From a virus: DNA of 22,769 nucleotides. Both the position numbers and the translations under genes were made by a program. The notes beneath the pieces are model-generated. The model was not told where the DNA came from, ran no database searches, and saw nothing but the letters and a program-made list of their open reading frames with translations. Below, one piece after another: positions 3,803 to 15,716 of this stretch; position 1 is the first letter of the stretch, and each line of letters opens with the position of its first letter. The DNA lies in IMG/VR virus record IMGVR_UViG_3300035180_000724, positions 1 through 22,769 of that record. One strand, written 5' to 3'.

Positions 3803-4042
3803 ATGCGCTACCTCATCAACATCAAGGATGGTACCATCTATGAATGGGACGAAATCCTTGCCGCTAACGCGCTGTGCCGTGAGTGCAGTGAGCAGGAAGC
3901 CTTCCCCGAAAAGTTCATCGCCAAGTCTGCTCTTGGCCGTGTACCCAAAGTGAAGCTCAACACGCCAGATATTCCGCCACAGGAAGAGCCTGCGGATAAT
4001 TCTGAGCTCAACGCTGACGCTTCGCAGGGCTTGCCCAAGTGA
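3803..4042 (+). CDS. Small hypothetical protein
   Basis: 79 residues; AAGGA at 3788-3792 precedes the ATG. The N-terminus (MRYLINIKDGTIYEWDEILA) looks like a compact beta/alpha fold. Two cysteines sit close together (CREC, residues 29-32). The C-terminal 30 residues are acidic and Pro-rich, probably disordered. No family is recognised. Its stop overlaps the GTG of the next gene, so the two are likely coupled; a small head-completion or decoration role is possible but unsupported. Confidence 0.68.
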   Translation: MRYLINIKDGTIYEWDEILAANALCRECSEQEAFPEKFIAKSALGRVPKVKLNTPDIPPQEEPADNSELNADASQGLPK

Positions 4043-4695
4043 CATTCGCTGAGGTCATCGTAGCTGTCCGTGACTTGCTGCAGGATGCAAACTCAAATCC
4101 TGACCTGCAGCGGTACACTGATGATCAGCTTGTAGGGTTTGCGAACCAGACCCTGAAGCGGATTGCCTTGCTGCGCCCTGACCTCTTCGCCTACATTGGC
4201 GACATCGCACTGACCGCAGGGGAGACACTTCAGTCTGCTCCTGCGGACTCTATCCGCATCTTTGAAATCTTGCGGGTGAAGAACGGCGCAGCCGTCCGCG
4301 AGACCGACCGTCACACAATGGACCAGACGTACCCAGAATGGGTGAGCGACCCGCAGGGTCCCTGTGTCAATTGGATGCGGCATCCTCGCAACAACAACAA
4401 GTTCTTTGTGTATCCACCGTCCCCCAATGGGCAAATCCTGACCGGTGAGTACGCAAAAGCTCCACCCAATTACAACATCGGCGACACGATCGCTTTGCTT
4501 CCTGACGTGTATTTTCCTGTTGTGGTTGACGGTACAGTCTATATGGCTGAGGCTGTTGACACTGAAAGTGTGAGCAGCCAGCGCTCGGAGATGTTCCAGA
4601 AATCCATGACGGGCATGCTTGCCGCAGGGCTTGACGCGCGGTCAGTCACTGATAAAGAGGACGCTGCCGTACCAGCAAAGAAAGGGTCGTCATAA
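4039..4695 (+). CDS. Phage head-tail adaptor protein (DUF6682-like)
   Basis: 218 residues from a GTG that overlaps the previous TGA (GTGA); no strong Shine-Dalgarno, so reinitiation is likely. The opening EVIVAVRDLLQDANSNPDLQ, then YTDDQLVGFANQTLKRIALL and RPDLFAYIGD, matches the pattern I know from phage adaptor proteins of the DUF6682 type, which bind under the portal. The middle holds aromatic segments (YPEWVSDPQGPCVNWMRHPR; KFFVYPPSP) seen in such proteins. It stands between the capsid block and a second connector candidate. The family call is from memory of the motif and is moderately sure; the head-tail connector role is also supported by position. Confidence 0.68.
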   Translation: MTFAEVIVAVRDLLQDANSNPDLQRYTDDQLVGFANQTLKRIALLRPDLFAYIGDIALTAGETLQSAPADSIRIFEILRVKNGAAVRETDRHTMDQTYPEWVSDPQGPCVNWMRHPRNNNKFFVYPPSPNGQILTGEYAKAPPNYNIGDTIALLPDVYFPVVVDGTVYMAEAVDTESVSSQRSEMFQKSMTGMLAAGLDARSVTDKEDAAVPAKKGSS

Positions 4696-5348
4696 TGTCG
4701 ATGCGAGCCTTTCTATCCATCGAACGTAAACTGGCAGCCAGCGTTGCCGGCTGCCCTCGCCCCACCATCGAGCAGCATGTGCGTGACGCCGCTATTGAGG
4801 TGTGCAACAAGACCAAGGTGTGGCGGTACGAGCAGGACTCGATCCGGCTCTCAGCTGGTGAGTACAACTACGATTTCGATACGCCCGATTTCACGGAGGT
4901 GGCTGCAATCATAAGCGCCACGATGAACGGCACCCCACTATCACATATCACTGAAGACGAGCTGCACGACGCGATGCCGTCATGGCCGCAGACAGCGGCA
5001 ACTGACTGGGCCACCCCGACTGTGATAAGTCAGGTTGCCGTTGACCAATTTGTTGTGGCGGCGGTCCCTGACGCTACCCAGACATACGATGTCAAAATGT
5101 TCCTCGCGCTCAAGCCTACGGTCGATGCGACCGGTATGGACAGTGCTGTGTTCGATCGGGTTGAGCAGATCATTATCCACGGCGCGCTGCAGCATCTTTT
5201 GGTGCTGCCTGAGAAACCATGGAGCGACCGCGAGCTTGCGACGTATCATGCGAAGCAATACACATATAAAACTGCGTCGTTCCGTGCCGACGCCAACCTC
5301 GGTGCAACACGATCTTCACTTTCCGTGAAGATGCGCCCTTTCGTATAG
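4695..5348 (+). CDS. Second head-tail connector / tail adaptor candidate
   Basis: 217 residues; ATG overlaps the previous stop (TAATG) with AAAGGG upstream. The N-terminal part has VAGCPRPTIEQHVRDAAIEV then CNKTKVWRYEQDSIRLSAGE and YNYDFDTPDFTEV, a layout I recall from podovirus head-tail connector proteins placed after the coat gene: an N-terminal helix pair followed by a beta-sandwich and a helical C-terminus (RVEQIIIHGALQHLLVLPEK). It would form the ring that joins portal or adaptor to the tail nozzle, like T7 gp11 in role. I do not see a diagnostic catalytic or binding motif. A tail-fibre adaptor is an alternative. Confidence 0.62.
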   Translation: MSMRAFLSIERKLAASVAGCPRPTIEQHVRDAAIEVCNKTKVWRYEQDSIRLSAGEYNYDFDTPDFTEVAAIISATMNGTPLSHITEDELHDAMPSWPQTAATDWATPTVISQVAVDQFVVAAVPDATQTYDVKMFLALKPTVDATGMDSAVFDRVEQIIIHGALQHLLVLPEKPWSDRELATYHAKQYTYKTASFRADANLGATRSSLSVKMRPFV

Positions 5349-5355
5349 GTGCCAG

Positions 5356-5688
5356 ATGTCAGACGTTATCAAGCTGGTGCAGGGAGATACACTCCCTTCG
5401 ATTACGATCACCCTCACTGACGAAGTCACTGGCGCAGCTTTTGACCTGAGCGGCGGCGGTACTTCGATTGCAATCAAGTTCCGGGCGGTCAACGCAACCA
5501 CTGTGTTGGCTACGATTGTCGGCTCCGTGGTTGACGGCCCTAACGGTGTGTTCGAGTTCGATTTCACCCCGTCTGTGCTGTTAGGGATTGACCCCGGGCA
5601 ATATGAGGGCGAGATCAAAGTCACGACTGCAGCTGGTCTCCAGACTGTGTTTGAGCCCATTAAGTTCCGTGTGAGGGCCAAGTTCTGA
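5356..5688 (+). CDS. BppU-like small beta-sandwich tail protein
   Basis: 110 residues. The sequence IKLVQGDTLPSITITLTDEV, then GTSIAIKFRA, then GVFEFDFTP and IDPGQYEGEIKVTT follows the beta-strand pattern of the N-terminal domain of baseplate upper protein BppU (an Ig-like fold in lactococcal phage baseplates), which also occurs as a stand-alone protein in podovirus and siphovirus fibre clusters. The upstream TAGGTG is a weak ribosome site. It lies at the start of the fibre region, so it probably serves as a small adaptor or anchor for surface proteins. Its TGA overlaps the next ATG (TGATG), suggesting coupling with the repeat protein. The family assignment is by pattern only. Confidence 0.6.
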   Translation: MSDVIKLVQGDTLPSITITLTDEVTGAAFDLSGGGTSIAIKFRAVNATTVLATIVGSVVDGPNGVFEFDFTPSVLLGIDPGQYEGEIKVTTAAGLQTVFEPIKFRVRAKF

Positions 5689-6659
5689 TGCGTACATGGC
5701 GGAGCACCTCTGGGCGTAGCAGCAAGCGGCTTCTGATGACCGCCAGCCTGCTTGTGCCTATGGTCGCTGCCATCTCTGGTGTTCAGGTGGCTTCCTCGGC
5801 CAACCCCCGTCCTGCGGCTTCCTACGCGTTTCTAGACCCTGATTTTACGGTATCATATGCGCAGCCCATGGCTACCCTGACCAGTGGTCAGCTTGTGGCA
5901 ACATCTCACAGCGTGCAACTCGTTGCTACGATCCAGCCGGCTGAGGGGTTGTTCGACTCTGCCTATGCTACAGATGTGCTGGCTGTGTTTGTGGGCAAGA
6001 GCCTTTCTGATACTATTTCTCCCGCCGACGTCATTGTGTTCAGTATGAGCCGTCCGCTGGCAGACAGCGTGACCGCAACTGAAGCGCCTGTGTTCAGCTT
6101 CTCTCAAGCTGCGTCGGATAACGTGACACCAAGCGATGCTGTTACATTTGGGTACTCTTTGGTCACCAGCGACAGCGTGGCAACTAGCGAAACCCCTGTG
6201 TTCAGCTTCGCTCAAGCTGCTGCCGATAGTGTGACGATGAGCGAAGTGCAGGTGTTCAACACAGGTAAGGTGCTTACTGACAGCGTGACGGCCACTGAAG
6301 CACAGGTCTTTGCTTTCTCACAGGTTGCTGCCGACAGTGTGACGACGAGTGAGACCCCTGTGTTCAGCTTCTCGCAAGTTGCTGCGGACAGCGTGACGAC
6401 CACTGAAGCACAGGTCTTTGCTTTTGCGCAGGCTGCAGCAGACAGTGTGACGATGAGCGAAGCGCAGGTGTTCAATTTCTCGCAAGTTGCTGCTGATAGC
6501 GTGACCATTTCTGAGGCGCTCACAGACGTGTGGACCGCAAACATTAGCTTGTCTGATAGCGTCACTATGGCGGATAGTTTGTCTACGGTGTACACACCCG
6601 GTGGGGCTGACCCACGGTACATTAATGGCGCGGCGTTCAACCGCGTCAGCTTTAACTAG
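5688..6659 (+). CDS. 18-residue-repeat protein with signal-peptide-like N-terminus
   Basis: 323 residues. Residues 1-38 resemble a Sec signal peptide: a basic start with five Arg and one Lys in the first 15 residues, a hydrophobic core (LLMTASLLVPMVAAISGVQV) and a small-residue exit ASSA. A single membrane anchor is an alternative. Residues 89-286 are eleven consecutive 18-residue repeats with consensus ADSVT.SEAQVFSFSQVA, with no gap or insertion; residues 287-305 hold a last, shifted unit. Such strict periodicity with alternating Val/Phe suggests a beta-solenoid or fibrous rod. The end, DPRYINGAAFNRVSFN, looks like a conserved cap. It sits between a BppU-like protein and fibre genes, so a virion fibre is the default guess, but an exported host-surface protein must be considered. 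No enzyme motif is seen. Confidence 0.72.
   Translation: MRTWRSTSGRSSKRLLMTASLLVPMVAAISGVQVASSANPRPAASYAFLDPDFTVSYAQPMATLTSGQLVATSHSVQLVATIQPAEGLFDSAYATDVLAVFVGKSLSDTISPADVIVFSMSRPLADSVTATEAPVFSFSQAASDNVTPSDAVTFGYSLVTSDSVATSETPVFSFAQAAADSVTMSEVQVFNTGKVLTDSVTATEAQVFAFSQVAADSVTTSETPVFSFSQVAADSVTTTEAQVFAFAQAAADSVTMSEAQVFNFSQVAADSVTISEALTDVWTANISLSDSVTMADSLSTVYTPGGADPRYINGAAFNRVSFN
5952..6545 (+). repeat. Eleven tandem 54-bp units (18 residues each)
   Basis: In-frame tandem array of 11 units of exactly 54 bp covering residues 89-286 of the repeat protein. The units from 6060 to 6491 are the best conserved (DSVT, then SE or TE, then VF). DNA copies are diverged at third positions, while blocks such as GACAGCGTGAC or GACAGTGTGACGA recur. 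The unit number could vary between relatives by recombination. Confidence 0.9.
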
Positions 6660-6670
6660 AGGAGAACAGA

Positions 6671-7126
6671 ATGTTCAGCGACGAGACCAAAATTACAGGG
6701 GCCGTGGAACTCGTTCTGCGCTCCAAGTCTGGGCGGGTTAAGCGCAGGCTGAAGATCAAGAACCTCGTAGTCACTACGGGCAAGGTTTTCATCGCTGCCT
6801 CGATGGCCAAGACGACGGTTAACACGCCAGTCGCCATGACACATATGGCAGTGGGTACGACCAACACTGCACCGGCAGCTGGCGATACCACGCTGGCAGC
6901 GGAAGTTGCCGCCTCTCGCACGGCGCTTACCTCCACGACCCCATCATCGAATACGTGCGTTTATGTTTGCACGTTCGGCGCAGGTGTCGGCACAGGTGCG
7001 CTCGTCGAGGCAGGTATCTTCAATGCTTCATCGGCCGGTACTATGCTCTGCCGTTCGGTCTTCTCCGTGATCAACAAAGGTGTTTCTGACTCCCTGACCA
7101 TCACTTGGACAATCACGGTCAACTAG
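6671..7126 (+). CDS. Conserved phage virion protein of unknown function, tail module
   Basis: 151 residues; GAGGAG lies just upstream of the ATG. The N-terminal half includes GAVELVLRSKSGRVKRRLKI, then NLVVTTGKVFIAASMA; the second half has VEAGIFNASSAGTMLCRSVF, then SDSLTITWTITVN. The GIFNA..GTML and LTITWTI elements recur in small proteins located beside tail fibres in many tailed phages. I cannot give a specific function; a fibre-base or tail-tip beta protein is most likely. The stop is one base before the next ATG, so translation of the first fibre, which lacks a clear ribosome site, probably depends on this gene. Confidence 0.65.
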   Translation: MFSDETKITGAVELVLRSKSGRVKRRLKIKNLVVTTGKVFIAASMAKTTVNTPVAMTHMAVGTTNTAPAAGDTTLAAEVAASRTALTSTTPSSNTCVYVCTFGAGVGTGALVEAGIFNASSAGTMLCRSVFSVINKGVSDSLTITWTITVN

Positions 7127-7127
7127 A

Positions 7128-8693
7128 ATGGCGGTCACCTCTTCCGCACTGACCAAGAACAACGCAACATCCACATTGGCGAGCTCGATCACCAATGTGG
7201 CGACATCGTTGACTGTGGCTGCGGGTGATGGCGCGAAGTACCCTAACCCCGGGGCGGGTGAGTATTTCTACTGCACATTGTCGAACGCACTGGGCACGAC
7301 GATTGAGATCGTGAAGGTCACCGCACGTGCGACTGACGTGTTTACGGTTGTGCGTGGGCAGGACGGTACTACTGGGCAAGCATTCAACGCTGGTGACATC
7401 GTTGAGATGCGACCGGTGTCTGCACTTTTTGGTGAGAAGCTTGACGCAAAAGCGCTGAAGTATGTGAGCAAGACAGCTGACTACACTGTTGTTGCTGCCG
7501 ACCTTGGGTACACGATCGAAGCCAACACAAACTCAATCACGCTCTCGCTGACGGCGGCTGCTACCCTTGGGGAAGGGTTCTGGTTCATTGCCAAGAACAA
7601 TAACGCGGCTGGTGCTAACACACTGGTGGTTGACCCCAACGCGTCCGAAACCGTTGACGGCATTGCGACTTGCACTGACTACCCGGGTGCAGTCCGGTTG
7701 TTCTATTGTGACGGTGCTAACTGGCGCTCCCATCTTATCCAAGGTGGTACAGCCCAATGGGCAACGGGTGGGTCGTTCTCCTTTATAATGCCGAACAACG
7801 CCGTTGAGCTTTCTGTAAAGCTTTACGGTGCAGGCGGTGGTGGTGGTGCTGGACAATCAGCAGCAACAGCAACTGCACGTCTTGGGGGAACGGGCGGCGG
7901 CGGCGGATCCAGACAAGATAGAACCTTTTCACCCTTTGACTTTGGTGCGTATGGCTCAACCTCAACTATTGTTGTGGGGACAGGCGGGAGCGGCGGTACA
8001 GGAACTTCCGGTGCCGCTGGTAGTAACGGCGCTGGTGGCGGCAATACTTCAATCAATGGCTCCATTGTTGCTTATGGCGGTGGTGGGGGTAAAGGTGGAA
8101 CGAGCGCAATTGCAGCTGGTGGTGGTACAGGGGCGGGAACAAGCGGCGCAGGAAACACCGCTCCAACTGCAGCTTCAGCGGGCGGCTCCCCTGCAACAGC
8201 AACAAACGCTGTTGGTATTTCTGGGCAAGGTGCTGGCTCCACAACCAATGTTAACACTTCCCCTAATCCTGCTGAATGGGGTGGGGCTGCTGGCGGCGGC
8301 GTCTTAACTGCTGGCGGCGCAGGAGGCCCCGGTGGACGGGCTCTCTATGGTGGTCCCGGTGGGGGTGGTGGTGCAGGGATAACAACTGGCAACGCAGCAG
8401 CAGCTGGCGGCGCAGGAGGCGCTCCCAATTCTTGGAGCACTGGCGGCGGCGGCGGCGGTGCTGGCGGGACCACTGCAGGAACTTCCGGTACAGCTGGGAC
8501 TGTCACAGCTGGGACTTCCTATGCGGGTTCGGGCGGTGGCGGCGGAGGTACTAATGGCACATCTACGGTAGGTGCGGGGGGCGCAGGTGCTCGCGGTGCC
8601 GGTGGCGGCGGAGGTGCAGCGGCGTTGACGGGCACGGCTGGCGGCGCTGGCGGTAAAGGCGGCGACGGTTTTGCCGCGATTGCGTATAAGTAA
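7128..8693 (+). CDS. Tail fibre 1: shared anchor, beta domain, glycine-rich tip
   Basis: 521 residues. Residues 1-105 are the anchor domain shared with the genes at 8707 and 10038 (core YFYCTLSNA, IEIVKVTARATDVFTVVRGQ, DIVEMRPVSALF). Residues 112-203 form a fibre beta domain (SKTADYTVVAADLGYTIEAN, then SETVDG, then CDGANWR) of a type common in phage fibres. From about 208 there is a strand segment (FSFIMPNNAVELSVKLYGAG) leading into some 285 residues dominated by Gly with Ala, Ser and Thr. Similar tips in S16/T2-type gp38 adhesins fold as polyglycine-II helix bundles whose loops bind receptors; that analogy is inference. It ends FAAIAYK. No clear Shine-Dalgarno is present, so coupling to the upstream stop is likely. 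Probable receptor-binding protein. Confidence 0.8.
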   Translation: MAVTSSALTKNNATSTLASSITNVATSLTVAAGDGAKYPNPGAGEYFYCTLSNALGTTIEIVKVTARATDVFTVVRGQDGTTGQAFNAGDIVEMRPVSALFGEKLDAKALKYVSKTADYTVVAADLGYTIEANTNSITLSLTAAATLGEGFWFIAKNNNAAGANTLVVDPNASETVDGIATCTDYPGAVRLFYCDGANWRSHLIQGGTAQWATGGSFSFIMPNNAVELSVKLYGAGGGGGAGQSAATATARLGGTGGGGGSRQDRTFSPFDFGAYGSTSTIVVGTGGSGGTGTSGAAGSNGAGGGNTSINGSIVAYGGGGGKGGTSAIAAGGGTGAGTSGAGNTAPTAASAGGSPATATNAVGISGQGAGSTTNVNTSPNPAEWGGAAGGGVLTAGGAGGPGGRALYGGPGGGGGAGITTGNAAAAGGAGGAPNSWSTGGGGGGAGGTTAGTSGTAGTVTAGTSYAGSGGGGGGTNGTSTVGAGGAGARGAGGGGGAAALTGTAGGAGGKGGDGFAAIAYK

Positions 8694-8706
8694 GGAGTAG
8701 CCCTCA

Positions 8707-9732
8707 GTGGCACAGGCACTAGTCAAGAACAACGCGTACAGCACCCTAGCCTCTGGCATCACGAGCTCAGCGACGTCGTTGACTGTTGCCACTGGGCATG
8801 GTGCTCGCTTCCCCGCAGTATCCGGGGGTGACTATTTTTATGCCACGTTGATCAACGCGTCGAACTTGCTTGAGATCGTCAAGGTCATTGCGCGGGCTGG
8901 TGATGTGTTCACTATCCAGCGTGGTCAGGATGGGTCGTCCTCGTTTGCATATCTGGCTGGTGATCGTATCGAGCTTCGCCCTGTGGCGGCGCTGTTCAAC
9001 GACAAGCTTTCGCTTGGCGGCGGCACGCTGACTGGTCCATTGGCCGTGCCCGCGGGCGCTGTGACTACACAGGTTCCACAAGTACAGGAAGTTGTGAAGC
9101 GCTCTGGCGACACGATGACTGGTCCACTTACTGTGCCTACGGTGAACGTGACTACGCTTTATGGTAGTGGAGGGATCGTTGATTTCCCCACAGGTAACAG
9201 GTTAGTGTCTCCTGATGCGGGCAGTTTTGTAGCCCCCGGGATGGTGCTCCAGACTGTCTACGCGCGCATTGATACACAGGCCACATATACGTACACGACC
9301 AGCGCCGGTCCGGGCTTCAGCGTGATGGACCTCACTGCGCTGACGATCAGCATCACGCCGAAGCTTGCTACATCGAAAATCCTCTTACAGGCTATGATCA
9401 GCGGCAGCCACAGCGACCAAGACTTTCTTTTCATCCTCGATCGGAATGGTACACCTATTGGGCGCAATGCTAGCGGTACAACTCGGCAGTTTGGTCTTGC
9501 AGCTGGTTCAGGCCAGAGCGGGTCCACCACCACTGATGGGTATCAGTGGAATTTCTTCTACATGGACGCTCCCGGGGCAACGTCTGCGCTTACCTATAAG
9601 GTGCAGTATCAGTCGTCGGAGAACGCCGTCCAGACGAGGACCTTCTACCTCAACCGCACTGCCGCGAACACAAACGCAGACTTCAACGAAGTCGGCATCA
9701 GTCAGATTATTGCACAGGAGATTGCACAGTAA
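8707..9732 (+). CDS. Tail fibre 2: shared anchor with beta-sandwich head
   Basis: 341 residues from a GTG at 8707, supported by AAGGAG at 8692-8697. Residues 1-98 are the shared anchor (YFYATLINA, LEIVKVIARAGDVFTIQRGQ, RIELRPVAALFNDKL). Two short phage-fibre motifs follow, GGTLTGPL (105-112) and SGDTMTGPL (133-141), known from many side-tail fibres. From about 176 comes a distinct C-terminal domain: APGMVLQTVYARIDTQATY, SITPKLATSKILLQAMISG, YQWNFFYMDAPGATSALTYK and a closing ISQIIAQEIAQ. This layout (VLQTV... SITPKLATSKIL... LTYKVQYQ... EI) recurs in fibres of marine and other phages and probably folds as a trimeric beta-sandwich. Unlike its two relatives it has no glycine-rich tip. Probable receptor-binding or fibre-branch protein. 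Confidence 0.8.
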   Translation: MAQALVKNNAYSTLASGITSSATSLTVATGHGARFPAVSGGDYFYATLINASNLLEIVKVIARAGDVFTIQRGQDGSSSFAYLAGDRIELRPVAALFNDKLSLGGGTLTGPLAVPAGAVTTQVPQVQEVVKRSGDTMTGPLTVPTVNVTTLYGSGGIVDFPTGNRLVSPDAGSFVAPGMVLQTVYARIDTQATYTYTTSAGPGFSVMDLTALTISITPKLATSKILLQAMISGSHSDQDFLFILDRNGTPIGRNASGTTRQFGLAAGSGQSGSTTTDGYQWNFFYMDAPGATSALTYKVQYQSSENAVQTRTFYLNRTAANTNADFNEVGISQIIAQEIAQ

Positions 9733-10034
9733 TGGACCTCGCTGCTGCGCTTAAGATACTCTATCCCAATGCAACGTGGTCGATTGAGCGTGACTACGCT
9801 TCCCTTGTGTGGCCGAACCAGATGGATGAGAAGCCATCAGAAGAAGTACTCGTGGCCGAAGCCACTCGGCTGCAGGCAGAGTGGGTTCGCACGGAGTACC
9901 AACGCAAGCGGGCCAAAGAGTACCCTGATCCCCGCGTTTACCTTGATGCGATCGTCAAGGGTGACACCGCACAGATGCAGCAGTATGTTGATGCGTGCTT
10001 GGCAGTGAAAGCCAAGTACCCGAAGCCGGAGTAG
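9732..10034 (+). CDS. Small tail-fibre assembly chaperone-like protein
   Basis: 100 residues; ATG overlaps the stop of fibre 2 (TAATG). The N-terminal part is a small beta/alpha unit (ILYPNATWSIERDYASLVWP). The rest is a long helix (VLVAEATRLQAEWVRTEYQR) followed by KEYPDPRVYLDAIVKGDTAQ and YVDACLAVKAKYPKP. The 'YQR.RA.EYP...YLDA.VKGD' style is known from small proteins next to fibre genes, often annotated as tail assembly chaperones or XkdW-like. Its place between two fibre genes fits a folding or trimerisation helper. No direct evidence is visible; a minor virion protein is possible. Confidence 0.58.
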   Translation: MDLAAALKILYPNATWSIERDYASLVWPNQMDEKPSEEVLVAEATRLQAEWVRTEYQRKRAKEYPDPRVYLDAIVKGDTAQMQQYVDACLAVKAKYPKPE

Positions 10035-10037
10035 TAG

Positions 10038-11285
10038 ATGGGCGTCCAAGTCACAAATAACGCAGCGAGTAAGCTGGCCGGCAGCATTGACACTGTCGTC
10101 ACTTCGCTGTCTGTTACGGCCACTGAGGGCGCAAAATTTCCCGCAGTTTCGACTGCGTCAGGTAATTATTTCTACGCGACACTTATCGACACAGCGGGCA
10201 ACATTGAGATCGTGAAGGTCACCGACCGTGTCACTGACACGTTCACGATCGTGCGTGCTCGTGATGGCACAACAGCCAAGTCGTTCTCAGCCAATGACCG
10301 CGTTGAGCTGCGCCCCGTAGCGGGACTTTTTAATGATCTCCCCAACCGGTTGCTGCAGACAGCCGACTACGCTGATGCGTCGATCACCACAGCCAAGCTT
10401 GCTGTGATGGGTTCTGTCACACCGAACACCTATGGCGGCCCCGGTAAGTACACCCAGTTCACTGTAAATTCCAAAGGCCAAGTTACTGCTGCCAGCGAAA
10501 GCTCAGGCGCGCTGCAGCAGACGACGTTTGCGTATACTGGCGGTGCACAGACATGGACAAAGCCTGCCGGCGGTACGTGGGCGCTGATCGAGCTATGGGG
10601 CGGTGGCGGGTCCGGTGGTAAGGGTCGCGCCAACTCTGCTGCTGGCGGCGGCGGTGGCGGGCGCTATATCCGCCGTCTGGTTTTGCTGTCTACGCTCGGC
10701 GCAACTGAGACCGTGAATATCGGCGCTGGTGGTGCTGCGCAGGCATCTGCGGACAGTAACGGTAACCCCGGCGGGGCCACTACATTCGGCACAGGTCCTA
10801 CACTTGTTACCGCATACGGTGGCGGTCCCGGCATGGGGACAGATGTTTCGGGTAACAATGGTGGCGGTCATGGCGGCGGAATTGGTGCCGTAGGTGGTAC
10901 ACAGGCCGTCGCTTCGACGGCGCTAGCCCTCAATAGCAGCTCAGACACACCGGGAGGGCGGTATGGTGCTTCCACTGCTGGTGAGGCTGGCGCGTCTGGG
11001 GAACACGCTGGGGGCGGTGGTGGTGCATGCAATAGTGGTACTTCTGTTGGTGGTGCTGGCGGTAACTCAACTTGGGGCGGTGCTGGTGGGGGTGCTGCGT
11101 CTGAGGTTAGTTCTCCCGCCCCGGGGGCCGGCGGTACGTCACAGTTTGGTGGGAATGGCGGCGCTGGGGCGTTCGACTCGAACAACGCTACGGCAGGTTC
11201 TGTCCCCGGTGGTGGTGGCGGCGGTGCAGAGCAGGGTACTAGCGGCGCAGGTGGCAACGGTCGCGCGATCATAACTGTTTTCTAG
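10038..11285 (+). CDS. Tail fibre 3: shared anchor, short stalk, glycine-rich tip
   Basis: 415 residues; the previous gene ends in two consecutive TAG codons directly before this ATG, with GGAG upstream. Residues 1-101 are the shared anchor (YFYATLIDT, IEIVKVTDRVTDTFTIVRAR, RVELRPVAGLFNDL). Residues 107-153 carry fibre motifs (YADASITTAKLAV, then GKYTQFTVNSKGQVTAASE). Residues 164-190 resemble the strand segment that leads into glycine-rich fibre tips (FAYTGGAQTWTKPAGGTWAL, then IELWGGGGSGGKG). From 187 to the end the chain is Gly-dominated with Ala, Ser and Thr, ending GRAIITVF. It is the partner of fibre 1 in architecture but shares little beyond general glycine richness at the tip. Probable receptor-binding protein; polyglycine-II folding is inference. 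Confidence 0.8.
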   Translation: MGVQVTNNAASKLAGSIDTVVTSLSVTATEGAKFPAVSTASGNYFYATLIDTAGNIEIVKVTDRVTDTFTIVRARDGTTAKSFSANDRVELRPVAGLFNDLPNRLLQTADYADASITTAKLAVMGSVTPNTYGGPGKYTQFTVNSKGQVTAASESSGALQQTTFAYTGGAQTWTKPAGGTWALIELWGGGGSGGKGRANSAAGGGGGGRYIRRLVLLSTLGATETVNIGAGGAAQASADSNGNPGGATTFGTGPTLVTAYGGGPGMGTDVSGNNGGGHGGGIGAVGGTQAVASTALALNSSSDTPGGRYGASTAGEAGASGEHAGGGGGACNSGTSVGGAGGNSTWGGAGGGAASEVSSPAPGAGGTSQFGGNGGAGAFDSNNATAGSVPGGGGGGAEQGTSGAGGNGRAIITVF

Positions 11286-11297
11286 GGGGCGGAGCAA

Positions 11298-11594
11298 ATG
11301 GCACCTCGGCGGACTTCTACTCAGGTATCACAAGATACTGACATGGCGATTATCAAAGTGAAGCTCGATGCACTGCTCTCACAGGTATCAAAGCTAGAGC
11401 GGGACATGGACTCCCGGTTTGCTGCTGCGGCTGACCTTGCTCAATTGCGCAAAGAGTTTTCTGATCTGGTCAGTACGAGTGTAACACAAGATCAATTCTG
11501 GCCCATTAAGACAGCAGTTTATGGCGCGATTGGACTCGTCTTGGTAGGCGCGCTAGGGTCTATTCTGGCCCTTATCTACAGGAGTTCATCATGA
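11298..11594 (+). CDS. Coiled-coil protein with C-terminal membrane segment (XhlA/holin-accessory-like)
   Basis: 98 residues with GGAG upstream. Residues 17-58 form a likely amphipathic coiled coil (IIKVKLDALLSQVSKLERDM). Residues 70-94 are one membrane segment (KTAVYGAIGLVLVGALGSIL). This arrangement, coiled coil then C-terminal TM then a short basic tail, is typical of XhlA/haemolysin-like and other small phage lysis accessories that sit beside holins and endolysins. It opens the lysis block and overlaps the next gene (ATGA). It could be the holin itself, a holin partner or an antiholin; I cannot tell which. Confidence 0.58.
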   Translation: MAPRRTSTQVSQDTDMAIIKVKLDALLSQVSKLERDMDSRFAAAADLAQLRKEFSDLVSTSVTQDQFWPIKTAVYGAIGLVLVGALGSILALIYRSSS

Positions 11595-12091
11595 GGCAGG
11601 TCATTTTCTGGGTGCTGTTTGTTTTCGGGGTTGCTACTAGCCTGACCCCCGGTGTATTTCTACTTATGCTTAACGCACCCTCGCCTGTGCAGGATTTGCA
11701 AGTTAGGGTCCTCACCCCCGTGGTGGCACCGGGACAAGAGTTCCAAGTCGAGATTTCTTCCGTACTCACTGATGAGTGCTCAGGCACGATCTGGCGGTCG
11801 ATCATCGACTCGGCTGGTGTTCGCACTGAGTATCAGCCGGCCGTGCGCCCTGACCAAGCCACATACACCGTGAAGCTTACTGTCCCGCTGGGGGCCAACC
11901 CCGGTGTTGCATACTACCAAGTGAAAGTTGAGTGGGTGTGCAACGCAGTGCAGCGTGTTTTCCCGCGCGTTACCCAGCAGCGGGCAGCTGTATTTGTGAT
12001 TAAACCACTGCCCGGGCAAATCCCGGACCTCGATAAACAGGGGGTGTATAGAGCCCCTGACACGCTTGCGGCAGAAGGAGCATCCCTATGA
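11591..12091 (+). CDS. Membrane-anchored periplasmic protein of unknown function in lysis block
   Basis: 166 residues; ATG overlaps the upstream stop and AGGAG precedes it. Residues 4-27 are hydrophobic (VIFWVLFVFGVATSLTPGVF), a TM anchor or uncleaved signal. The remainder looks like an Ig-like beta domain: VQDLQVRVLTPVVAPGQEFQ, then CSGTIWRSIID, then ATYTVKLTVPLG and YYQVKVEWVCN. Two cysteines could form a disulfide in the periplasm. The C-terminal 30 residues are Pro-rich. No family is recognised. It overlaps the endolysin start (ATGA) and so is co-translated with it. Possible roles are endolysin or holin regulation, superinfection exclusion, or a membrane-tethered virion protein; none is shown by the sequence. 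Confidence 0.65.
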   Translation: MRQVIFWVLFVFGVATSLTPGVFLLMLNAPSPVQDLQVRVLTPVVAPGQEFQVEISSVLTDECSGTIWRSIIDSAGVRTEYQPAVRPDQATYTVKLTVPLGANPGVAYYQVKVEWVCNAVQRVFPRVTQQRAAVFVIKPLPGQIPDLDKQGVYRAPDTLAAEGASL

Positions 12092-12588
12092 CAATGATCT
12101 GGCCAATGGAACGGGACTGTGACGCATTCTACGGGAACCCTCGCGGCCCCGGCGGCGCTGTGGTGAACCCGAAGTGGTACCAAGCCAACATCGTGAACAT
12201 CGCCCCACCGTTCCCCATGCACATGGGGTCGATCAAGATCATGCACTTCCCAGTACATACTAAGTGCGCCGCTGCGTTCAAGCAGTGGATGAAAGCCATG
12301 CTGGACAACGCAGGTGGCGACCCCGGCAGGCTCGCTGTCTGGGGCGTAGACGTGTTCTCGGGGTCGTTCAATTACCGGGCTAAGCGTGGATCGAACGCTC
12401 TCTCCATGCACTCGTACGGGATCGCTGTTGACCTTGACGCTCCGCGGAACCAGTTCAAGAGCCGCAGCATACACTTCGCGCAGTTTAAGCAGCAGGTTGT
12501 ATCCCCTTTCCTTGACCTTGGCGGTGAGTGGGGCGGTAACTGGAAGAACTCGACTGATGGTATGCACTTCCAATTTGCACATCCATAG
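12088..12588 (+). CDS. Endolysin, peptidase M15-type (L-Ala-D-Glu or D-Ala-D-Ala peptidase)
   Basis: 166 residues with AAGGAG before the ATG. It cuts peptidoglycan peptides during lysis. The zinc-peptidase M15 signature is complete: S106-M-H108-x2-G-x3-D115 (SMHSYGIAVDLD) gives two zinc ligands, GGEWGG supplies the catalytic Glu147, and DGMHFQF supplies the third ligand His160. The upstream segment FNYRAKRGSNAL fits the substrate-binding Arg region of VanY/Ply-type enzymes. There is no cell-wall binding domain and no evident signal peptide, so release needs a holin. Its neighbours are two membrane proteins upstream and a holin candidate and spanins downstream. Substrate bond specificity cannot be read from the sequence. 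Confidence 0.88.
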   Translation: MTMIWPMERDCDAFYGNPRGPGGAVVNPKWYQANIVNIAPPFPMHMGSIKIMHFPVHTKCAAAFKQWMKAMLDNAGGDPGRLAVWGVDVFSGSFNYRAKRGSNALSMHSYGIAVDLDAPRNQFKSRSIHFAQFKQQVVSPFLDLGGEWGGNWKNSTDGMHFQFAHP

Positions 12589-13181: not shown

Positions 13182-13335
13182 TGCCTGCGGCCCCGAGAAA
13201 CTCCCAAAGCCTGAGCCTGCACAGGTAGGCTGCCACGCGTTCTTCATAATTCATCCGTCACGCCAAGACACGCTTGACACGAAGAAGCAAGTGCTCTCCC
13301 ACAACACGATCTACCGGAAGGTCTGCCCAGCATGA
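13114..13335 (+). CDS. Outer-membrane spanin lipoprotein (Rz1-like), overlapping the i-spanin in another frame
   Basis: 73 residues, starting at an ATG inside the i-spanin gene (68-base overlap, different frame); GAAGAGG lies upstream. The N-terminus is a lipoprotein signal: basic MSPRKLNSRL, hydrophobic TLISLVISATV and lipobox LSAC with Cys25 as the lipidated residue, followed by GPEKLPKPEP. The mature part is about 49 residues with Pro early and further Cys at 40 and 71. An overlapping i-spanin/o-spanin arrangement is well known from lambda-type Rz/Rz1. The frame stays open upstream to an ATG at 12988, but a lipoprotein signal must be N-terminal, so the internal start is preferred. Its TGA overlaps the ATG of the next gene. 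Confidence 0.82.
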   Translation: MSPRKLNSRLTLISLVISATVLSACGPEKLPKPEPAQVGCHAFFIIHPSRQDTLDTKKQVLSHNTIYRKVCPA

Positions 13336-15716
13336 CCGCAATGCGGTTCGCCAAGTTCCTCGGCTACGCGCCTAAGAGCGCACCCGAACTGCTGTCTGAT
13401 ACCGCTGCTCAAGTTGCCGTCAATGTGAAATTCTACTCGGGAGATTTGCTCCCGTATCGCACACCTGTGGTAAACTCGAACATCGGTCGCAACGGCACTA
13501 TCCAGTCTATCTACCCAATGCGTAATCCTGCCGATAGTTCCGACCTGAAGTGGTTATCATGGTTGGGCAGCGTTGATGTGGCTACTACGACCGCGCTGGA
13601 CGATGCTGAACAGCGCATCTATTACACAGGAGACGGTGTCCCCAAGGTTACGAACTATGCACTGGCGGTGCAGGGTTCCGTGCCCTATCCAACGGCTGCA
13701 TATGATCTCGGGCTCCCTCTTCCGACACAAACTTTCGGTGCTGCAGCTGCTTCGGCAGCTACGTCAACGACGGTGACGTATGCACGTGACGGCGGCAATG
13801 TCGCTACGATCGTCACTGCCGGGCCACACGGGCTCAAGACAGGTGCGTTTGTTGCTGTGTCTGGGTTCACCGCAACCGATGCGTCTACCTTCAATGTCAC
13901 TTCCTCGCAGATCACTGTGATCAACAGCACTACGTTCACATACTACAGCATTGGCAACGCGGTCTCTGGCTCCGACAATACCGGCTCTGTCGGCTTGGCT
14001 GGCAACACGATCGCCCGCAACTACGTCTACACATGGGTCACGCCATGGGGTGAGGAGTCGGTGCCAAGCTCGCCCAGCACCACGCTGTACCTGCGCGAAG
14101 GTCAAGTAGTGACGCTCACTGACCTACCGAATTCACCGCCTGCAGGCAACAACTTTATCCGCGGCATCCGCATCTACCGCACCATTACCGGCACCAACGG
14201 CACATCGTATTTCCGTGTCGCTGAAGTGTGGTTCCCCCTCGCGCTTGACAGCGCTTCGCGCACGTCGAACCTCGTCACGATGAAGGTCGCAAGTAACCAC
14301 AACTTGTTGGTGGGCGATAAGATCAAGATTTCAGGTACTGCTTTTGGTGGTGTGCCTGACACATCTTTTGACGTCACTGACATAACTGTGCAGAGCGTAG
14401 TCGATAATTACACGTTTACTTATCTCGCAGCTGGCGCGGACAAAGCCCTGACGAATTGCTCTGCTGGCACACTGTACTGGGATACGGCGGAACCCGGCGT
14501 TGTCTCTTCGCGGTACTACACCGGCACGACCTTTATCGATGATTTCAACTACGCAGGGCTCGCAATCGAACTTGACAGCCTCAACGCTGATCCGCCGGAC
14601 CCCGGGATGCAGGGTATCATTGCTGCGCAGAACAACATCTTGGCAGGCTTTGTTGGCAACGAAGTCTGCTTCTCGGATGTGGGTCGCCCATGGTCATGGC
14701 CGTCGAAGTACCGTCTGGTGCTTGAGTACCCCATTGTCGCGCTCGCGGCCGTCGGTGGGCAGATTGCTGCACTCACGACTAAGTATGTTTACCGCATCAG
14801 CGGCTCCGACCCCAGCAGCATGGCATACGATCGCGCTGACGCACCCTACCCATGCTTGTCGAAGCGTGGCGTGCTCAACGTCGGCTATGGCGTGATCTTC
14901 CCATCTTATGGCGGGCTGGCAGTGTTCCAGAGCGGCGGCGGTCTGGCGTTCGTTACAAGGATCGTGCATGACTGGGACACATGGCCAGTATCACTTGACC
15001 CATCGACGCTTGTTGCTGCGTTCTATGCGGGTAAGTACTTCGGCTCCCACTCCAGCGGCGCGTTCATCTTCGAGCAGGACGAAAAGACCGGTGGCTATTT
15101 CACTGACGTAGGAGCGCATTTCACTGCAGCCTACTACGACTCGCGGTCGAACCGGTTCTACTATGTGTCAGACACATCGGGCACGCTCATGGAGTGGGAC
15201 CCGATTGGCCAGCCGCTGCTCCCCATGGAGTGGAAGTCGAAGGTTATCCTGACCAAGGGATATATGAATTTTGGTGCTGCGCGTGTCGTTGGTGAGTACG
15301 CTACTCCCTCACTTGACGCTGATGCCGTGGCTACCTACAACGCTACTGTGGCCCCATTTAACACATCGATCTGGTCACAGATTAGCCAGCTTGGGACTGT
15401 CGATGGTCCATCACCATTGGACTACATCCACCCAATCTCAGGCAGTCCGTTGTCTGTGTCTGGCGCATTGAACAGTTTTCCGGTCAACGGTGACCCATTC
15501 ACGATCAGCAAGCTGGTGTTGACTGGTGTGTACCCCGTCAACTTCAAGCTTTGGGCGAACAAGGTGCTGGTGCTCGACACTAACATCGTGGACTCTAACA
15601 TCTTCCGATTGCCCACAGGGTACCGGGCTGACACACTAGAGTTCTCTGTGTCGGGCTCTGCCCGCATCAAGTCTATTCACATCGGTGAAACCCCCAATTC
15701 GTTGAGGGATGCGTAA
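13332..15716 (+). CDS. Large tail tube/nozzle-like protein
   Basis: 794 residues; ATG overlaps the o-spanin stop (ATGA) with GGAAGG at 13316-13321; an ATG three codons later is an alternative. The N-terminus (KFLGYAPKSAPELLSDTAAQ, then VAVNVKFYSGDLLPYRTPVV) and many short beta repeats resemble the nozzle-type tail proteins of podoviruses. These close the short tail, as T7 gp12 does. About residues 130-380 carry insertions that look like beta domains with Thr/Ser-rich loops (VTYARDGGNVATIVTAGPHG; GNTIARNYVYTWVTPWGEES). From about 430 to 560 are propeller-like strands (FVGNEVCFSDVGRPWSWPSK, then TTKYVYRISGSDPSSM). The end is a compact beta domain. It directly precedes the ejection proteins, as in T7. 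No catalytic motif is visible. A host-contact tail protein is possible. Confidence 0.66.
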   Translation: MTAMRFAKFLGYAPKSAPELLSDTAAQVAVNVKFYSGDLLPYRTPVVNSNIGRNGTIQSIYPMRNPADSSDLKWLSWLGSVDVATTTALDDAEQRIYYTGDGVPKVTNYALAVQGSVPYPTAAYDLGLPLPTQTFGAAAASAATSTTVTYARDGGNVATIVTAGPHGLKTGAFVAVSGFTATDASTFNVTSSQITVINSTTFTYYSIGNAVSGSDNTGSVGLAGNTIARNYVYTWVTPWGEESVPSSPSTTLYLREGQVVTLTDLPNSPPAGNNFIRGIRIYRTITGTNGTSYFRVAEVWFPLALDSASRTSNLVTMKVASNHNLLVGDKIKISGTAFGGVPDTSFDVTDITVQSVVDNYTFTYLAAGADKALTNCSAGTLYWDTAEPGVVSSRYYTGTTFIDDFNYAGLAIELDSLNADPPDPGMQGIIAAQNNILAGFVGNEVCFSDVGRPWSWPSKYRLVLEYPIVALAAVGGQIAALTTKYVYRISGSDPSSMAYDRADAPYPCLSKRGVLNVGYGVIFPSYGGLAVFQSGGGLAFVTRIVHDWDTWPVSLDPSTLVAAFYAGKYFGSHSSGAFIFEQDEKTGGYFTDVGAHFTAAYYDSRSNRFYYVSDTSGTLMEWDPIGQPLLPMEWKSKVILTKGYMNFGAARVVGEYATPSLDADAVATYNATVAPFNTSIWSQISQLGTVDGPSPLDYIHPISGSPLSVSGALNSFPVNGDPFTISKLVLTGVYPVNFKLWANKVLVLDTNIVDSNIFRLPTGYRADTLEFSVSGSARIKSIHIGETPNSLRDA

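Follow-up and report, generated by a model that had tools for sequence, protein, structure and literature searches.

Three neighboring fiber genes in the window, by which we mean the whole 22,769-nucleotide stretch of viral DNA analyzed here, look like old paralogs kept side by side, and they probably encode the trimeric fibers of a GP4/Lessievirus-like podophage, with anchors that dock on a six-fold nozzle and distal parts that act as separate receptor-binding heads swapped at the anchor boundary. All three reading frames are intact and run in one direction (Table 1). A BLASTP comparison of the first ∼108 residues of the three products resulted in pairwise identities of 55–62% over 95–101 amino acids, with E-values of 1e-33 to 1e-41 for the three pairs, and the alignment of the three anchors contains 42 invariant columns, in agreement with a preliminary description of this DNA that had proposed the N termini of the three genes to be homologous from end to end. 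The anchor was also picked up independently at the DNA level by a repeat finder, as a three-copy family. The likeness among the three fibers ends where the anchor ends, and a wider search showed the same anchor to be joined to many other tips. The fibers gave no match to the T7 gp17-type N-terminal tail fiber domain in a Pfam scan, and no promoter for a separate fiber scored above chance in positions 6500–11700.

Table 1. Coordinates of the fiber genes, their neighbors, and the tail genes in the window
Feature	Position	Strand	Description
Tail adaptor	4039–4695	+	Homolog of 8jov_2 (12 chains)
Tail adaptor	4695–5348	+	Homolog of 8jov_G (12 chains)
110-aa protein	5356–5688	+	Dock candidate of the preliminary description; conserved in gene order; weak resemblance to BppU_N, below cut-off
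151-aa protein	6671–7126	+	Dock candidate of the preliminary description; often directly upstream of first anchored fiber; model resembles HFTV1 baseplate hub domain
Fiber 1	7128–8693	+	521 aa; anchor (7128–7445), beta stem of ∼100 residues, glycine-rich tip
22-bp block in fiber 1	7302–7323	+	Identical to 10203–10224
Fiber 2	8707–9732	+	341 aa, GTG start; anchor (8707–9012), short stem, TNF-like tip (9199–9729)
100-aa protein (phrog_9114)	9732–10034	+	Probable chaperone of the fiber 2 tip, as suggested by linkage
Fiber 3	10038–11285	+	415 aa; anchor (10038–10343), short stalk, glycine-rich tip
22-bp block in fiber 3	10203–10224	+	Identical to 7302–7323
Tail nozzle (phrog_511)	13332–15716	+	Homolog of 8jov_A (6 chains), E = 1e-58; probable anchor dock

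The distal parts of fibers 1 and 3 both match the Pfam family Gly_rich_2 (PF21722), with E-values of 3.7e-7 and 3.3e-13 and scores of 30.8 and 50.6 bits, respectively, which are above the cut-off of 24.3 bits. The preliminary description had assigned three different tips to the three fibers. The distal parts do differ, but the heads of fibers 1 and 3 match one family, and the three different stems therefore carry two classes of tip. The tip of fiber 2, which had been described as beta-sandwich-like, is indeed beta-rich, and its predicted structure (pLDDT 84, built from 28 sequences) models as a TNF-like jelly-roll fold. The nearest PDB structures to this model are chains of Pgp3 (E = 3e-5, TM-scores of 0.50–0.59), the chlamydial protein whose C-terminal domain we take to be TNF-like. 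The same type of tip is also present in P-SSP7, HTVC010P, DC33, and S-WAM2, which belong to other phage lineages, and it is found as separate genes that lack the anchor, sometimes in tandem (L182 and L184).

The window contains the hexameric nozzle, both dodecameric adaptors, and, in the interval between adaptor and nozzle genes, the anchored fibers of a podophage tail of the GP4/Lessievirus type. The anchor profile matches the putative tail fiber of the Ralstonia podophage GP4 (8jov_1 in PDB ID 8JOV) with an E-value of 3.4e-25, and this protein is present in the structure as 18 identical chains, i.e. six trimers, together with a hexameric nozzle. In GP4, the six trimeric fibers are reportedly attached to the nozzle, and two further fiber types to a 15-fold adaptor. 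The preliminary description had suggested the 5356 or 6671 protein as the docking site of the anchor, a proposal that finds no support; the match to 8JOV points to the product of 13332. With matches to a single solved tail for the anchor, the nozzle, and both adaptors, the nozzle has better support as the dock, and by transfer from GP4 the hexameric product of 13332 is likely to be the dock of the anchors in the window's phage. The GP4 tail entries 8JOV and 8JOU are those of Zheng et al. 2023 (J Mol Biol 435:168258), according to the reference given in PMC11784390. The window differs from GP4 in that only one GP4 fiber sequence in the PDB has the anchor, compared with three genes here, and in that the 8JOU proteins have no provable homolog among the window's 5356 and 6671. 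No relative of the nozzle protein was found in genome contigs, where a prophage would have pointed to a host.

The relatives keep both 5356 and 6671 in this gene order, and the gene immediately upstream of the first anchored fiber is 6671-like at 39 of 61 distinct loci with a nozzle and at 30 of 57 distinct loci where the stretch contains none. The 6671 product could well be a virion component close to the fibers, and since 6671-like genes adjoin the first anchored fiber even at nozzle-less loci, another attachment part is possible. At these loci, single genes match head and connector families and a search for a nozzle came up empty, which carries little weight, as the records may be fragments. 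Profiles of the 5356 and 6671 families gave no convincing match to those of the 8JOU proteins (homologs of BcepIL02 gp55 and gp57), a result compatible with remote homology. The model of 6671 has no match to 8JOU and resembles a domain from the baseplate hub of an archaeal virus. The protein encoded at 5688–6659 contains ten D-S/N-V motifs ∼18 residues apart (amino acids 126–290) and an INGAAFN end. It may be a rope-like component of the virion, and several relatives encode comparable repeat proteins, which differ in length, ahead of their 6671-like gene. Between fiber 3 and the nozzle gene, positions 12088–12588 encode an endolysin-like M15-type peptidase (PF13539).

The multi-fiber arrangement is already known from Lessieviruses, as the tail type is from GP4. 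In Lessievirus (Bcep22, BcepIL02, DC1, CSP3, BcepMigl, and JC1), three or four tail fiber genes lie between the adaptor and nozzle genes, and in the five Lessievirus genomes compared these three or four fibers have the N-terminal anchor of the window's fibers. The window and the Burkholderia Lessieviruses have the gene order portal, capsid, adaptors, fibers, and nozzle in common; however, identity is lower, and the genes of the 5356, 5688, and 6671 types are replaced by others. Three of the four tips of BcepIL02 are related to one another, in contrast to the two tip classes of the window. The CSP3 paper discusses the multiple fiber genes of Lessievirus, which generally cluster by position, and repeats a suggestion by Gill et al. 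that virions may differ in the fibers that they bear (PMC10269572). Virion proteomics of JC1 listed no tail fiber protein, and thus none of its three (PMC9144972). What is added by our analysis is the generality of the arrangement in environmental relatives, its slot structure, and the tip-linked gene.

Multiple anchored fibers are the rule in this nozzle-defined metagenomic group. Viral contigs were scanned with the nozzle profile, rather than that of the anchor, and then pooled with the earlier loci; clustering of the nozzles at 95% identity, with a complete adaptor–nozzle interval required, resulted in 41 clusters. One anchored fiber is present in 9 of these, two in 26, three in 5, four in 1, and zero in none, and hence two to four in 32 of the 41. 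The nozzle query itself reached 30 clusters, in which the number of fibers is two in 24 cases, one in 4, and three in 2. Ten nozzle clusters contain a short anchor-only protein of 118–169 amino acids, similar to that of Klebsiella phage ZX1 (125 amino acids). At six loci (L149, L153, L155, L161, L166, and L171) the second anchor is an anchor-only protein of 118–127 amino acids beside a full-length anchored fiber, as though the second dock had either a cap or a tip protein encoded separately.

Replacement of tips at the domain boundary is directly evidenced by cross-genome pairs of fibers with anchors at least 85% identical and tips of at least 60 amino acids (n = 74, BLAST threshold of 1e-3). 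The tips have no detectable similarity in 44 of the 74 pairs, have a shorter stretch in common in 18, and are shared over at least 60% of the tip in 12. In the 44 pairs with differing tips, identity stops within a range from 9 residues ahead of the anchor profile's end to 7 residues past it, these sequences, like those behind the linkage described below, being related and not independent. Within the population of the window's virus no tip variation was seen in the two contigs at hand, L004 and L005, which derive from this virus (10.2 and 8.5 kb, respectively, aligned with the window at 99.9% identity and with no gaps) and have the tips of the window.

A small gene accompanies one of the tip classes. 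Of 10 anchored fibers with a TNF-like tip, 7 are immediately followed by the start of a 9732-like gene, compared with 2 of 174 other anchored fibers (Fisher p = 2e-11, a value inflated by shared ancestry), and such a gene also follows 11 of 41 anchorless genes for TNF-like tips. At L189 and L190, these anchorless genes stand in tandem, and several copies are each followed by a 9732-like gene. Judged from this linkage, the product of 9732 is probably a cognate chaperone that travels with the TNF-like tip; none of the chaperone families in Pfam and NCBIfam, including the Tfa type, matched it above the cut-off. A solved example of a fiber chaperone is gp25 of the myocyanophage Pam3 (PMC9608196), a phage in which TNF-like and glycine-rich heads likewise occur together with a phage-encoded chaperone. 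In contrast to the window, both head domains are in one Pam3 protein, gp24, which has a helical anchor, and gp25 comprises 162 amino acids in a beta-sandwich and a helical domain, compared with 100 amino acids for 9732; the two are likened by description. The same applies to the Alteromonas phages A5, V22, and P24 (PMC10579305), where a fiber and its cognate chaperone are common to unrelated virion types but the whole host-recognition module is shared.

The preliminary description had explained the three genes by duplication followed by tip exchange. The homologous anchors and the swapping of tips at the anchor boundary in relatives bear this out in part, but the duplication does not look recent, as identical codons at identical residues occur at the rate expected from codon usage for two of the three pairs (fibers 1 and 2, and fibers 2 and 3). 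Among 71 anchors of multi-fiber genomes, 70 have their best match in another genome and not in their own paralog, and the sole exception is fiber 1 of the window, for which the nearest anchor in that set is fiber 2 (63%). L070 and L072 encode separate orthologs of fibers 2 and 3 that correspond in both anchor and tip, and a 9732-like gene separates the two, which is the window's arrangement too. The first slot of L070 carries a tip unrelated to that of fiber 1. This first-slot fiber (L070:5674–7608) ends in RCC1-like repeats (PF00415 above and PF25390 below the cut-off), an unusual tip for a phage.

Fiber 1 could have been gained whole from another phage lineage and not by duplication in this one, a history that we consider rather unlikely. 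The unrelated tip in the first slot of L070 would fit such a gain, and in one tree the anchor of fiber 1 groups with nozzle-less loci (91/85), one of which provides its closest identity outside the window's own contigs (66%). However, another tree joins it weakly with fiber 2 (84/21), a single clade of the three window anchors is not rejected by the AU test (p = 0.33, with ∼100 columns being too few to place fiber 1), and fibers 1 and 3 have a 22-bp block in common. This block, ATTGAGATCGTGAAGGTCACCG, had been pointed out in the preliminary description and is exact at both positions. An identical run of this length between fibers 1 and 3 was obtained in ∼0.1% of 5000 simulations with the proteins fixed and codons drawn randomly from the window's own usage, and the block is therefore probably more than chance, although this is one of three fiber pairs and was chosen after the fact. 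Gene conversion may have left the block as a trace, or chance may have produced it, aided by the strongly conserved IEIVKVT motif. It is less probable still that only one of the fibers works, with the others being reserve or decaying copies. The JC1 proteomics would agree with this, but the three frames of the window are intact, two of the fibers have orthologs that are kept with their tips in relatives, and the persistence of two to four copies in 32 of 41 nozzle clusters indicates that they are under selection.

The anchors themselves may be specialized, each fiber gene having a docking position of its own, such as one on the nozzle and another at a different site, so that there would be no competition between them; we regard this as conceivable but doubtful. 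The best match of an anchor from a two-fiber relative lies in the corresponding slot of another genome, and in the 25 two-fiber genomes from viral contigs the two anchors form separate lineages, with the second-slot anchors in one clade (96/87; 98% of bootstrap trees) and with two alignment columns that fully separate the slots. When low-complexity sequence is excluded, tips are common to 19 same-slot pairs compared with 0 cross-slot pairs. On the other hand, glycine-rich tips as a class are present in both slots, the window's anchors fit neither of the two slot types, GP4 has a single fiber with this anchor in the PDB, and the fidelity of the slots is also expected if a slot's own anchor serves as the homology arm in recombination, so that it fits either explanation. 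Extended to the group, the slots would tentatively suggest that abundant uncultured podophages carry fiber sets in fixed slots, with an anchor lineage for each slot, tip replacement confined to the anchor boundary and for the most part to a slot, and a dedicated chaperone gene for some tips; the slots might then be two or three functionally distinct fiber positions on one virion and not interchangeable copies.

In the preferred reading, with several fibers on one nozzle, the product of each fiber gene would form a trimer that docks through its N-terminal anchor of ∼100 residues on the six-fold nozzle encoded at 13332, as suggested by GP4. The head would be glycine-rich in fiber 1, TNF-like in fiber 2, where the 9732 product would probably assist its folding, and of a second glycine-rich form on a short stalk in fiber 3. 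Over time, heads would be replaced by recombination at the anchor–head boundary while the anchor keeps its gene position. The six nozzle positions would most likely be filled by the three fibers in mixed or alternative combinations, and mixed occupancy may widen or hedge receptor recognition and thereby affect host range. Several receptor-binding proteins per short-tailed phage have been described for few cultured groups only. In this group, the history can be read from the conserved anchors, the replaced tips, and the tip-linked small gene, and the solved homologous tail 8JOV makes it testable whether one six-fold platform serves several fibers or each fiber has its own position.
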